Source of the DNA: Arion vulgaris
Taxonomy: Eukaryota > Mollusca > Gastropoda > Stylommatophora > Arionidae
Direction of reading: 5' to 3'
Length of the DNA stretch: 64,000 bases
Assembly (NCBI GenBank): GCA_020796225.1
Contig: CM036756.1
Coordinates: 64,223,644 to 64,287,643 of the forward strand
Position numbers and translations under genes: made by a program. The notes under the pieces were generated by a model, which had not been told where the DNA came from, ran no database searches, and was given only the letters and a program-made list of their open reading frames with translations. Position 1 is the first letter of the stretch; every line of letters starts with the position of its first letter. This document shows, one piece after another, positions 4,896-63,196 of the stretch.

Positions 4896-5256
4896 CACAG
4901 CCAACTCTAGATAACTAGGCCAGACAACTGAGTGGGTGTTCCCTGACCTAGATCAGAAAAGGGGGACGGAAAATATAGTTGTTTGATAGAACACTGCAAG
5001 CTTTTTTGCAATTTTACTCAATTATGTGAGTCTATGGTTATTTATTGGTGAAAAATATTCATAATATTGATATTCCTTATTGTTAAACTTAACTTGTTGC
5101 ATAATATAACTTTGATTTAGCATTTTGTGTTGATTTTAAATTGAATTCGTCTATATACACCAATACTGGAATGCGAGGTCACGTGGTGTAGTTGTGGTCT
5201 GATTTCCCATAATTCTTACCTGAATCCAAAAGCCCATAAGTTTACAGTTGGCTCTG
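4896..5256 (+). mobile_element. M7 MITE, 361 bp, 7-bp target duplication
   Basis: Ends CACAGCCAAC and GTTGGCTCTG are inverted repeats. Flanks CACAAAC at 4889-4895 and 5257-5263 are a perfect 7-bp direct duplication. The interior has no ORF. A near-identical element of 359 bp (after removing a SINE) sits at 29687-30269. A 7-bp duplication is compatible with P-like or Dada-like elements; the superfamily is not assigned. Confidence 0.85.
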
Positions 5257-29686: not shown

Positions 29687-30269
29687 CAGAGCCAATTGTA
29701 AAATTATTGGCCTTCGGATTCAGGTAAGAATTATGGGAAATCAGACCATAACTACACCACGTGACCTCGCATTCCAGTTTTGGTGTATATAGACGAATTC
29801 ATTTTAAAATCAACTCAAAATGCTAAATCGAAGTTATATTAGGCAACAAGTTGTTTTTTTGGTGTTTTTTCGATCCAGAAGCACTTGAGCTGAAACCTCT
29901 TCGGCTCGGTGTCATGGACATCGTAACCCTTCGGCTCGGTGCCACGAACACCGTAAATCTGGGGAACCTGTAGCTTTTCTGCCAGTCCGTGGAGTTGAAC
30001 CTGCACTTACAGAGGACTTGTCACCAGTAGTCCAACGCGCTACGAACACGCTGGGCACGAGGGCAGGCAACAAGTTAAGTTTAACAATAATGAATATCCG
30101 TATTATGAATATTTTCACCAATAAATAACCATAGACTCAAAGAATTGAGTAAAATTGCAAAAAGCTTGCAATGTTCTATCAAACATATATAATTTCCAGC
30201 CCCTTCTCTGATCTAGGTCAGGGAATCCCCGGTCAGTTTGTCTGTCCTAGTTATATAGAGCTGGCTGTG
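29687..30269 (-). mobile_element. M7 MITE inserted in Core1, itself carrying a T1 SINE
   Basis: Ends CAGAGCCAAT and AGCTGGCTGTG, flanked by ACTGAGC (29680-29686) and TCTGAGC (30270-30276), a 7-bp duplication with one mismatch whose single-copy form is seen in other Core1 copies. Minus the SINE and one SINE duplication the element is 359 bp, collinear with 4896-5256. Confidence 0.9.
29853..30064 (-). mobile_element. T1 SINE inserted in M7, 12-bp target duplication
   Basis: Minus-strand T1 with T-rich left end then CGATCCAGAAGCACTTGAGC and GTCCAACGCGCTACGAACAC. AGGCAACAAGTT at 29841-29852 and 30065-30076 is identical. The uninterrupted M7 at 4896-5256 gives the empty site. Confidence 0.95.
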
Positions 30270-44498: not shown

Positions 44499-44544
44499 CA
44501 GAGCCAACTATAAACTTATAAACTTAAAGTTAGAGTTGGCTGTG
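44499..44544 (-). mobile_element. Minimal M7 element, 46 bp, with perfect 7-bp target duplication
   Basis: CAGAGCCAAC at the left and GTTGGCTGTG at the right enclose only 26 bp. CTTTTAC at 44492-44498 and 44545-44551 is identical. The interior TATAAACTTATAAACTT matches the fused M7 ends of the array at 48362. Confidence 0.9.
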
Positions 44545-48350: not shown

Positions 48351-48361
48351 GACAGCTATAC

Positions 48362-48975
48362 CACAGCCAACACTAGATAACTTATTTTTATTTATTTTTT
48401 TATTTCGATCCAGAAGCACTTGAGCTTTCAGCTCTTCGGCTCGGTGCCATGAACATCGTAACCCTTCGGTTTGGTGCCACGAACACCGTTAATTGGGAAC
48501 CTGTGGCTTTTCTGCCAGTCCGCGGAATTGAACCCGCACACACAGAGGACTAGTCACCCGCAGTCCAACGCGATACGAACACGCTGGGCAGGCGGGCTAG
48601 ATAACTTATAAGTTTATAGTTGGCTCTGGCTATACCACAGCCAACTCTAGATAACTTATAAGTTTATAGTCTGGCTCTTGCTATACCACAGCCAACTCTA
48701 GATAACTTATAAGTTTATAGTCTGGCTCTTGCTATATCACAGCCAACTCTAGATAACTTGTAAGTTTATAGTCTGGCTCTTGCTATATCACAGCCAACTC
48801 TAGATAACTGAAGTTTATAGTTGGCTCTTGCTATATCACAGCCAACTCTAGATAACATAAGTTTATAGTTGGTTCTTGCTATATCACAGCCAACTCTATA
48901 TAACTTATAAGTTTATAGTTGGCTCTGGCTATACCACAGCCAACTCTAGATAACATAAGTTTATAGTTGGCTCTT
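48362..48975 (+). repeat. Array of eight minimal M7 elements, 51-bp period
   Basis: Each unit is a shortened M7 (CACAGCCAACTCTAGATAAC, TTATAAGTTTATAG, TTGGCTCTTG) followed by GCTATAC/GCTATAT, a 7-bp spacer equal to the target duplication. The outer flanks are also GCTATAC (48355-48361 and 48976-48982). So (element + one duplication) is the amplified unit. A T1 SINE interrupts the first unit. Confidence 0.85.
48385..48596 (-). mobile_element. T1 SINE in the first M7 unit, 12-bp target duplication
   Basis: Left T-rich tail, CGATCCAGAAGCACTTGAGC, right head GTCCAACGCGATACGAACAC and GGGCAGGCGGG. CTAGATAACTTA at 48373-48384 and 48597-48608 is identical. Confidence 0.95.
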
Positions 48976-49139
48976 GCTATACCATCCAAATGTAATATGC
49001 AGCCCAGAAACAGATTAGAATAGGCAAATCAAAAAGAAGATGACATAATGAAATGATAAACCTCATTGTATGCAACAAGTATCAAAGAAAATCAGAATTC
49101 TTCAGTACTAAGTAAAGCAAATCATGTCTTACGGATTGA

Positions 49140-52574: not shown

Positions 52575-54744
52575 GTGTTACACATCTTAATTCTCAAGTT
52601 GAAGTTCGCTGTGTTAGTGTGTGTGCATACTGGCTGGCTTCTGACAATTAGATTGTTGCATATCTATCTCAAGTTGAAGTTCGCTGTGTTAGTGTTTGTG
52701 CATACTGGCTGGCTTCTGACAATTAGATTGTTGCATATCTATCTCAAGTTGAAGTTGGCTGTGTTAGTGTTTGTGCATACTGGCTGGCTTCTGACAATTA
52801 GATTGTTGCATATCTATCTCAAGTTGAAGTTGGCTGTGTTAGTGTTTGTGCATACTGGCTGGCTTCTGACAATTAGATTGTTACATATCTATCTCAAGTT
52901 GAAGTTGGCCGTGTTAGTGTTTGTGCATACTGGCTGACTTCTGACAATTAGATTGTTACATATCTATCTCAAGTTGAAGTTCGCTGTGTTAGTGTTTGTG
53001 CATACTGGCTGACTTCTGACAATTAGATTGTTAGATATCTATCTCAAGTTGAAGTTGGCCGTGTTAGTGTTTGTGCATACTGGCTGGCTTCTGACAATTA
53101 GATTGTTACATATCTATCTCAAGTTCAAGTTGGCCGTGTTAGTGTTTGTGCATACTGGCTGACTTCTGACAATTAGATTGTTACATATCTATCTCAAGTT
53201 GAAGTTGGCTGTGTTAGTGTTTGTGCGTACTGGCTGGCTTCTGACAATTAGATTGTTACATATCTATCTCAAGTTGAAGTTGGCTGTGTTAGTGTTTGTG
53301 CATACTGGCTGGCTTCTGACAATTAGTTTGTTACATATCTATCTCAAGTTGAAGTTGGCTGTGTTAGTGTTTGTGCATACTGGCTGGCTTCTGACAATTA
53401 GATTGTTACATATCTATCTCAAGTTGAAGTTGGCTGTGTTAGTGTTTGTGCATACTGGCTGGCTTCTGACAATTAGATTGTTACATATCTATCTCAAGTT
53501 GAAGTTGGCTGTGTTAGTGTTTGTGCATACTGGCTGGCTTCTGACAATTAGATTGTTGCATATCTATCTCAAGTTGAAGTTGGCTGTGTTAGTGTTTGTG
53601 CATACTGGCTGGCTTCTGACAATTAGATTGTTACATATCTATCTCAAGTTGAAGTTGGCCGTGTTAGTGTTTGTGCATACTGGCTGGCTTCTGACAATTA
53701 GATTGTTGCATATCTATCTCAAGTTGAAGTTGGCTGTGTTAGTGTTTGTGCGTACTGGCTGGCTTCTGACAATTAGATTGTTACATATCTATCTCAAGTT
53801 GAAGTTGGCTGTGTTAGTGTTTGTGCATACTGGCTGGCTTCTGACAATTAGATTGTTACATATCTATCTCAAGTTGAAGTTGGCTGTGTTAGTGTGTGTG
53901 CATACTGGCTGGCTTCTGACAATTAAATTGTTACATATCTATCTCAAGTTGAAGTTGGCTGTGTTAGTGTTTGTGCGTACTGGCTGGCTTCTGACAATTA
54001 GATTGTTACATATCTATCTCAAGTTGAAGTTGGCTGTGTTAGTGTTTGTGCATACTGGCTGGCTTCTGACAATTAAATTGTTACATATCTATCTCAAGTT
54101 GAAGTTGGCTGTGTTAGTGTTTGTGCGTACTGGCTGGCTTCTGACAATTAGATTGTTACATATCTATCTCAAGTTGAAGTTGGCTGTGTTAGTGTTTGTG
54201 CATACTGGCTGGCTTCTGACAATTAGATTGTTACATATCTATCTCAAGTTGAAGTTGGCTGTGTTAGTGTTTGTGCATACTGGCTGGCTTCTGACAATTA
54301 GATTGTTACATATCTATCTCAAGTTGAAGTTGGCTGTGTTAGTGTGTGTGCATACTGGCTGGCTTCTGACAATTAGATTGTTACATATCTATCTCAAGTT
54401 GAAGTTGGCTGTGTTAGTGTTTGTGCATACTGGCTGGCTTCTGACAATTAGATTGTTACATATCTATCTCAAGTTGAAGTTGGCTGTGTTAGTGTTTGTG
54501 CATATTGGCTGGCTTCTGACAATTAGATTGTTGCATATCTATCTCAAGTTGAAGTTCGCTGTGTTAGTGTTTGTGCATACTGGCTGGCTTCTGACAATTA
54601 GATTGTTACATATCTATCTCAAGTTGAAGTTCGCTGTGTTAGTGTTTGTGCATACTGGCTGGCTTCTGACAATTAGATTGTTACATATCTATCTCAAGTT
54701 GAAGTTGGCTGTGTTAGTGTTTGTGCTGGCTTTCTGACAATTAG
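52575..54744 (+). repeat. 75-bp satellite, about 29 copies
   Basis: Units TTGAAGTTGGCTGTGTTAGT, GTTTGTGCATACTGGCTGGC, TTCTGACAATTAGATTGTTA, CATATCTATCTCAAG at exactly 75 bp with almost no indels. One frame stays open for 519 codons and repeats LKLAVLVFVHTGWLLTI. I treat it as non-coding satellite: no codon-position bias in the substitutions is apparent and there is no gene context. Confidence 0.97.
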
Positions 54745-62330: not shown

Positions 62331-62449
62331 ACAATTAGCTCACAATTTAGAACGCATAAATTTGAGCAGATAATTTGGAATACATAGTTCTCATATGTGA
62401 AAAGAATGTAGAACATATAGTTTATATGTAAATCCTAGTCGCATCCCGT

Positions 62450-63196
62450 TTGACACATAATACTCTCACAAGAGATTTCTATTGCTGTAAATCAGCAACC
62501 TTTCTATCAAACGTTCTCCATAACAGCTCACTATCGTGCCACTGCAAGAAGGCGGACATGACGGCAGAGCACATGCTGCAAGACTGCCAACTACTAGCAG
62601 GCATGAGACACGTCACCAGGTCGGAAAATACAGAGCTAAATCTAGCAGGCCTGAGACACGTCACCAGGTCGGAAAATACAGAGCTAAATCTAGCAGGCAT
62701 GAGACACGTCACCAGGTCGGAAAATACAGAGCTAAATCTAGCAGGCATGAGACACGTCACCAGGTCGGAAAATACAGAGCTAAATCTAGCAGGCATGAGA
62801 CACGTCACCAGGTCGGAAAATACAGAGCTAAATCTAGCAGGCATGAGACACGTCACCAGGTCGGAAAATACAGAGCTAAATCTAGCAGGCATGAGACACG
62901 TCACCAGGTCGGAAAATACAGAGCTAAATCTAGCAGGCCTGAGACACGTCACCAGGTCGGAAAATACAGAGCTAAATCTAGCAGGCCTGAGACACGTCAC
63001 CAGGTCGGAAAATACAGAGCTAAATCTAGCAGGCCTGAGACACGTCACCAGGTCGGAAAATACAGAGCTAAATCTAGCAGGCATGAGACACGTCACCAGG
63101 TCGGAAAATACAGAGCTAAATGAGAATCTGTACGGAGGGACGGAGTCCCTAAAATTAAAAGCAGAATTTATGAGGAAATATTGTATATCAATCTAA
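62450..63196 (+). pseudogene. L-Z LINE ORF2 C terminus with in-frame 16-aa repeats
   Basis: The open frame reads SLSCHCKKADMTAEHMLQDC, a C-x-C...H...C arrangement found near the C terminus of RNase H-bearing non-LTR ORF2 proteins, then eleven copies of LAGMRHVTRSENTELN, then ENLYGGTESLKLKAEFMRKY and a stop at 63194-63196. Without the extra repeats the flanks join as QLLAGMRHV...ELNENLYGG, the spacing I expect for this domain. The frame is intact throughout. Upstream RT is absent, so the fragment is probably inactive. Confidence 0.75.
62597..63120 (+). repeat. 48-bp minisatellite inside the L-Z ORF, 11 copies
   Basis: CTAGCAGGCATGAGACACGT, CACCAGGTCGGAAAATACAG, AGCTAAAT at exactly 48 bp. The only recurrent variation is CAT/CCT (Met or Leu) at one codon: units 2 and 8-10 have Leu. 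No indels. Confidence 0.97.

Follow-up and report, generated by a model that had tools for sequence, protein, structure and literature searches.

An excision scar of an M7-type transposon as the probable seed of a tandem array in Arion vulgaris

Tandem repeats seeded by transposons are well known (excerpts of PMC12628747 and PMC9659126). When double insertion seeds a satellite (McGurk and Barbash 2018, as relayed in excerpts of PMC12628747 and PMC9659126), the product likewise consists of tandem units with target-site-duplication junctions. When the Drosophila P transposase cuts, the donor ends keep 3′ tails of 17 nt (excerpts of PMC2895639), and P-element joints consist, in order, of the duplication, up to 17 nt, a microhomology or an insertion (some of them templated), up to 17 nt, and the duplication again, with some joints losing more (PMC2895639, Table 1). 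In the open-licence literature searched, no description was found of a repaired excision joint as the seed of a tandem array. Here, an array from Arion vulgaris is described that, judging from its sequence, is probably a multiplied excision scar of an M7-type transposon, left by a putative transposase that cuts with a stagger. The same scar-to-array process seems to have occurred separately at many other places in the genome.

The window, the whole stretch of 64,000 nucleotides that was analysed (contig CM036756.1 of assembly GCA_020796225.1, positions 64,223,644 to 64,287,643 of the forward strand), contains at 48355-48982 eight head-to-tail units enclosed by nine 7-bp spacers, GCTATAC or GCTATAT, with GCTATAC as the outer flank on both sides (Table 1). 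The array is present as described in an earlier note on this DNA, and TRF called it independently (48597-48981, period 51, score 638). The unit length of about 44 bp given in that note holds in part: the eight units are there, with lengths of 41-44 bp that are not uniform and with unit 1 split by a SINE. The units begin and end with CACAGCCAAC and GTTGGCTCTG/T, except for TCTGGCTCTT in units 2-4 and GTTGGTTCTT in unit 6, and their assignment to the ends of the 361-bp M7 at 4896 was borne out. Unit 3 is an exact repeat of unit 2, and a private end, GTCTGGCTCTT, is common to units 2-4, which indicates that neighbouring units are copies of one another. Unit 7 is one base off a simple composition of 21 nt of the M7 left end, 1 nt, and 21 nt of the M7 right end; for the count of retained lengths given below, a composite of the array's units was used rather than unit 7 itself.

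Table 1. Coordinates of the array, its units and related elements within the window
Feature	Position	Strand	Basis
Full-length M7, 361 bp, 7-bp duplication CACAAAC; type of the retained ends	4896..5256	+	sequence
Second full-length M7, 583 bp with nested SINE, duplication GCTCAGA/GCTCAGT	29687..30269	-	sequence
Lone scar-like copy, 46 bp, CTTTTAC on both sides; absent from the earlier note	44499..44544	-	sequence
Left outer 7-bp target-site duplication GCTATAC	48355..48361	+	sequence
Unit 1, 267 bp, excision-scar-like, split by a SINE	48362..48628	+	sequence
tRNA-type SINE inside unit 1; 13-bp duplication CTAGATAACTTAT at 48373-48385 and 48597-48609	48386..48596	-	orientation and SINE name are a reading of the sequence
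Unit 2, 44 bp; spacer before it GCTATAC 48629-48635	48636..48679	+	sequence
Unit 3, 44 bp, identical to unit 2; spacer GCTATAC 48680-48686	48687..48730	+	sequence
Unit 4, 44 bp; spacer GCTATAT 48731-48737	48738..48781	+	sequence
Unit 5, 41 bp; spacer GCTATAT 48782-48788	48789..48829	+	sequence
Unit 6, 41 bp; spacer GCTATAT 48830-48836	48837..48877	+	sequence
Unit 7, 43 bp; spacer GCTATAT 48878-48884	48885..48927	+	sequence
Unit 8, 41 bp; spacer GCTATAC 48928-48934	48935..48975	+	sequence
Right outer 7-bp target-site duplication GCTATAC	48976..48982	+	sequence

Several other features of the window were recorded. The SINE nested in the M7 at 29687-30269 is of the tRNA type and, by eye, matches in kind the one that splits array unit 1. 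The window (1-64000) is rich in minisatellites, with 60 TRF rows, some of them overlapping. A 75-bp satellite (52592-54726, 28.5 copies) was considered as a second case and rejected; AAGTTGGCTGTG, similar to one M7 end, recurs in many of its units, and no second end was seen. Rfam at gathering thresholds gave no match within the window. Pfam comparison of five window ORFs left four without a match and pointed to a transposase in none; the ORF at 62432-63196, which lies inside a 48-bp repeat array, matches DUF4694 and, weakly, Attacin_C.

The genome assembly searched for related sequences comprises 1.52 Gb. The short-copy pattern CACAGCCAAC-N5..35-GTTGGCT, which captures total lengths only up to about 55 bp, matched 478 times on the forward and 515 times on the reverse strand, with elements whose two ends are alike counted on both, and the head-to-tail junction pattern matched 56 and 45 times, or 101 in all. 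Both patterns read backwards gave 0 matches genome-wide, excluding chance as the source of these counts. Among the 100 of the 101 junction matches that were listed, a hand count found spacers of 5-8 bp in 87 rows at 29 loci, of 1-2 bp in 10 rows and of 19-20 bp in 3 rows. Examples of arrays include four 36-bp units with spacer GTTCTAT (L013), three identical 55-bp units with GCCTTAC (L026), about ten 40-bp units with ACTTAAC (L027), two identical 36-bp units with GTTTTGT (L138) and about 21 units with GCTGTAG (L130). Less regular arrangements were also observed. At L141 (C21:10.58M), the units measure 44, 36, 44 and 44 bp, probably reflecting an 8-bp internal loss in one of them; at L025 (C3:70.44M), a 62-bp unit consists of a 36-bp scar-like copy and 26 bp, with an M7 end at the left border of the array; and at L086 (C1:106.88M, 397-835), units of ~38 bp alternate with the spacer CTCACAG, the right end lying beyond the sampled stretch and the left flank TTCACGA matching the spacer at 4/7 positions. 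At L019 (1152-1874), two M7 elements stand head to tail with a 1-bp joint, forming a 723-bp unit between 7-bp repeats ATCTGAG, as if a dimer had moved as one.

The spacers vary with the locus in the way expected of target-site duplications. Of the 18 array loci covered at both outer ends, no two have the same spacer, and the outer flanks match their own spacer at 6/7 positions or better in 30 of 36 ends, compared to 13 of 1224 when the spacers of other loci are used. Counted by locus, both flanks agree with the spacer in 13 of the 18 arrays and at least one flank does so in 17, with failure on at least one side at five (L016, L112, L128, L131 and L139); the left flanks of L024 and L086 also lack a match to their own spacer. 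Between loci, 6/7 agreement of spacers on either strand was observed for three pairs (L020a/L133, L027/L112 and L128/L130). Spacers and outer flanks were copied by hand, with the right flank of L020a read with the last unit 2 bp short and the spacer of L133 (6 bp as parsed) written with a shared G; with L020a as parsed, the count becomes 29/36 (control 12/1224), and with L133 also omitted it becomes 27/34 at 17 loci (control 9/1088). The comparison was confined to loci other than L024, L086, L125, L132, L140 and L141 (one end beyond the sampled stretch), L041 (second unit partial), and L010 and L025 (20- and 26-bp spacers). Because spacers differ by locus and mostly equal their own outer flanks, the array spacer is the target-site duplication. 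The proposal that the unit comprises the element ends and one target-site duplication is thus upheld (30/36 own flanks against 13/1224), and arrays elsewhere, predicted in the earlier note to have different spacers equal to their own outer flanks, behaved accordingly at most loci examined. The contrary outcome named there, a GCTATAC built into the element, did not occur (18/18 spacers differ), and the distinct spacers together with the own-flank matches rule out a spacer that belongs to the element.

The short copies carry the same signature. The sample was drawn from the matches listed on contig C1 and part of C2 (87 loci), and the removal of L046, which has no strict core, left 86; two listed places, C1:100706694 and C2:37510804, are not part of it. 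The short copies are 28-54 bp long, 28 of the 86 being exactly 36 bp, and the 7-mers flanking them are identical in 36 and alike at 6/7 or better in 58, leaving 28 without a 6/7 duplication. For comparison, exchanging flanks between the 58 loci that had no neighbour called gave 6/7 likeness in 135 of 17065 combinations. A loose neighbour call, with 3 mismatches tolerated, picked up chance neighbours and was not relied on for array counts. Inverted ends and a duplication, as in a MITE, are therefore found in these copies; the homogeneity of sequence and size of a MITE family is not (69 distinct cores in 86, 28-54 bp). The target duplication has the palindromic consensus GTTNAAC, taken from the 34 perfect 7-mers among 78 non-array loci; at position 2, A occurs almost as often as T. 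Related repeats having the same site and no insert were found for L030, L039 (one base longer), L050, L053, L055, L066 and L077 (one base different), while for L036 and L090 related repeats align across the site and the 7-mer is not kept. L030 and L055 lie in two copies of the same host repeat that agree at 81% over 304 bp, and carry 36- and 44-bp short copies at the same site, GTATAGC; a third copy of this host repeat is empty at the site (L005, 2204-2353). Either independent excisions of one ancestral M7 or two insertions could have produced the L030/L055 pair.

The anatomy of the short copies points to how the M7 interior was lost. Retained length was scored strictly against full-length M7 ends, with no mismatch accepted after position 10. 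On the right side, 30 of the 86 copies reach 21 nt and none reaches 22; on the left side, 21 extend to 21 nt, four to 22, two to 23 and none to 24. A tolerant count that included the second end type gave a similar picture, with a single copy (L059) keeping 23 and 24 nt. Since the M7 inverted repeats are alike over their first 11 positions (one mismatch) and beyond that only patchily, 21 nt does not simply mark the end of the repeat. The joints between the retained ends comprise inserted bases in 42 copies, microhomology of at least 2 in 32, and blunt or nearly blunt junctions in 12. The commonest core, present at 14 loci, is a 36-mer joined at the 4-bp microhomology ATAA, which lies at the 3′ end of the presumed right stub (as TTAT) and two bases away from where the left stub ends; for the second M7 end type, a 37-mer with a matching kind of join occurs at 5 of the 86 loci. 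The joint insertions are only mildly templated, their longest match to the stubs averaging 4.26 compared to 3.63 in shuffles (31 fillers). Within 281 kb, a small sample centred on the short copies, no non-array element of 59-346 bp with M7-type ends and a duplication was seen, and the next size class after the short copies consists of elements of 347-363 bp. Because retention on either side ends at around 21 nt and the cores resemble repair joints, the M7 interior was more likely lost through cutting of M7 out on site and joining of stubs of ~21 nt than through insertion of a minimal M7. The earlier suggestion of a minimal M7 inserted once is, for the same reasons, probably wrong.

The strongest competitor is nevertheless a tiny mobile element, that is, an internally deleted M7 of about 36-44 bp that was mobilised in trans, inserted in GCTATAC and then tandemly amplified. 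Such an element would explain the presence of the same 36-mer core at 14 of the 86 loci, with different duplications where these are readable, and of a second 36-mer core at four, as well as the existence of empty paralogous sites; a single founder of 21+1+21 nt would also give the 21-nt limit. However, a mobile family should be more clonal than 69 distinct cores in 86 copies, and the most frequent core represents the simplest join for its end type, with a matching join for the second end type. A length of 36 bp would also leave almost no room for two transposase-bound ends. None of the papers listed by a literature search on the smallest transposons concerned eukaryotic MITE size. Finally, different cores (36 and 44 bp) occupy the same site in the L030/L055 host repeat, although two insertions could also have placed them there. 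A tiny mobile element is thus considered unlikely, and it is kept at that level because of the 28 of 86 copies without a clear duplication, the flank failures, the recurrence of the 36-mer at 14 loci and the option of a 21+1+21 founder.

Aborted gap repair after excision, in which M7 would be deleted internally in situ rather than reduced to joined staggered stubs, is distinctly improbable. P-element breaks do show partial repair synthesis followed by end joining (excerpts of PMC2895639), and at L125 about 45 bp of one M7 end is preserved in a unit of ~67 bp. Yet gap repair should give variable and often asymmetric lengths, and none of the 86 short copies keeps 25 nt or more on either side, nor were non-array intermediate lengths seen in 281 kb. 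In-situ gap repair was rejected as the main route on the grounds of the 21-nt limit and the missing intermediate lengths in 281 kb, and the joining of ~21-nt stubs is retained.

The growth of a joined scar into an array can be followed through comparison of units. In the eight arrays compared, mean unit identity is 0.91-1.00 within arrays (one L024 pair being as low as 0.73) and 0.74 between arrays, and one unit per array, chosen by hand, gave 18 distinct founder cores in 23 arrays. Near-identity of units within arrays, together with these distinct founders, makes it most likely that each array grew from one scar by local copying. Local multiplication, as the earlier note had supposed, is therefore supported; of the two multipliers it offered, unequal exchange between duplications is kept, alongside replication slippage, as the presumed route, whereas aberrant transposition is not favoured for the short arrays, in which the units are near-copies. 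The array unit can be traced to a transposon and its duplication, as in a transposon-derived tandem repeat.

This pattern also bears on double insertion, in which repeated insertion into the same duplication would have built the array element by element and for which only a very slight chance remains. For Drosophila tandems it is the route given in the literature (McGurk and Barbash 2018, via excerpts of PMC12628747 and PMC9659126), and full-length M7 elements that, as we read them, share 7-bp duplications were found tail to tail (L134), with two end types (L135) and as three long units (L127), along with what reads as a short unit beside an M7 with an 8-bp joint (L116). In the short arrays, by contrast, the units are near-copies (in 8 of the 8 arrays compared) and all in one orientation. 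Genome-wide, an exact tail-to-tail junction spaced by 5-9 bp was found at one place, compared to head-to-tail junctions with 5-8 bp at 29 loci (100 listed of 101), and identical unusual cores, for example the three identical 55-mers at L026, disfavour separate insertions. End letters alone can misread orientation: L023 and L134 match the head-to-tail pattern, and their inner sequence runs tail to tail. Head-to-head pairs with 6-8 bp among the matches listed are L015, L018 and L022, with L018 and L022 each consisting of a short copy beside a longer M7 end. Double insertion was rejected for the short arrays on the near-copy units and the single tail-to-tail place; for some full-length M7 pairs (L134, L135 and L127), a transposition-like double insertion is likely from their sequence. 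That GCTATAC is part of an ordinary satellite unit, unrelated to insertion, would suit the regular period of 48-51 bp but is refuted by spacers that change between loci and mostly equal the outer flanks, and its probability is practically nil.

Taken together, a three-step route from transposon to scar to array is proposed. M7-type elements insert and duplicate 7 bp of their target, as observed. A transposase would then cut M7 out with a stagger, such that about 21 nt of each M7 end stays on the chromosome ends, and end joining would fuse these stubs via microhomology or short insertions, as their anatomy suggests, giving a partly palindromic scar of 28-55 bp between two 7-bp duplications. The pattern of the third step, a scar and one 7-bp duplication copied head to tail, is seen directly; the simplest mechanism would be unequal exchange between the 7-bp repeats on either side, or slippage from one to the other during replication, with the scar hairpin possibly bringing them close. 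Slippage or exchange between the two duplications would yield a unit made of the scar plus one duplication, and later exchange would homogenise the array. In the window, M7 would at one time have occupied GCTATAC and left a scar of about 43 bp that grew to eight units, with a SINE splitting unit 1. Palindromes have been proposed as a cause of slippage in a beet minisatellite (excerpts of PMC2820488). Fold energies of short single units are modest here (-4.5 to -10.3 kcal/mol, DNA parameters), and the hairpin-slippage step is accordingly inferential. The spacers of L010 and L025, at 20 and 26 bp, indicate that amplification is not always bounded by the 7-mer. On balance, we lean towards a more general proposal: excision scars, not transposons, may be a recurrent minisatellite seed, with a P-like transposase of 21-nt stagger leaving partly palindromic 28-55 bp scars between 7-bp direct repeats, an anatomy that would dispose each scar to tandem growth, so that the departure of transposons keeps creating satellites, each with its own spacer.

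The birth of a tandem repeat is usually lost after homogenisation, and at many of the present loci its marks are preserved. A site-specific target duplication bounds the unit, whose core records what looks like a single repair event. Arrays of this kind would allow the founding event of a satellite to be read and independent births in one genome to be counted, and would permit testing of whether hairpin and direct-repeat anatomy sets the chance of growth. They would also document, in a genome other than that of Drosophila, several hundred excision joints left by a P-like element.

Among described systems, several resemble the present arrays in their tandem form. Coral CMITE arrays likewise consist of tandem short inverted-repeat elements and are ascribed to replication slippage (excerpts of PMC2872659); in contrast to the copies described here, they are about 100-bp piggyBac-related elements at TTAA, and the excerpted text gives no scar origin (PMC2872659). 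The SaTar elements of guayule and rice likewise form linear multimers of small non-autonomous elements, but they are unrelated and are targeted to microsatellites (excerpts of PMC5907723). A hAT-type MITE with tandem accumulation is also similar, differing in its repeat units of 167-169 bp inside ~600-bp inverted repeats. As we read the literature, the closest published end product is that of double insertion into one duplication, and the difference here lies in the seed, a repaired excision joint: in the route of McGurk and Barbash (2018), whole elements are inserted repeatedly (excerpts of PMC12628747 and PMC9659126), whereas here a scar of about 40 bp would have been copied locally.

With respect to the transposon itself, Galileo, a member of the P superfamily, generates 7-bp palindromic duplications of GTANTAC (excerpts of PMC4168063), to which GTTNAAC may be likened, although its inverted repeats, up to kilobases, are much longer than those of M7 (excerpts of PMC4168063). 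M7 shares with the P superfamily a 7-8 bp duplication with a palindromic consensus (GTTNAAC), and its 21-nt limit on both sides compares with a stagger of 17 nt in P, the cut in M7 being deduced from sequence. By analogy, placement of M7 in the P superfamily is a lead. P-element excision joints repaired by polymerase theta in Drosophila have the same order of duplication, stub, microhomology or insertion, stub and duplication as the short copies here (PMC2895639), with 17-nt tails and an 8-bp duplication in place of about 21 nt and 7 bp (PMC2895639). Unlike the P-element joints of PMC2895639, the joint-like copies described here number several hundred in one assembly, and some of them have grown into arrays.
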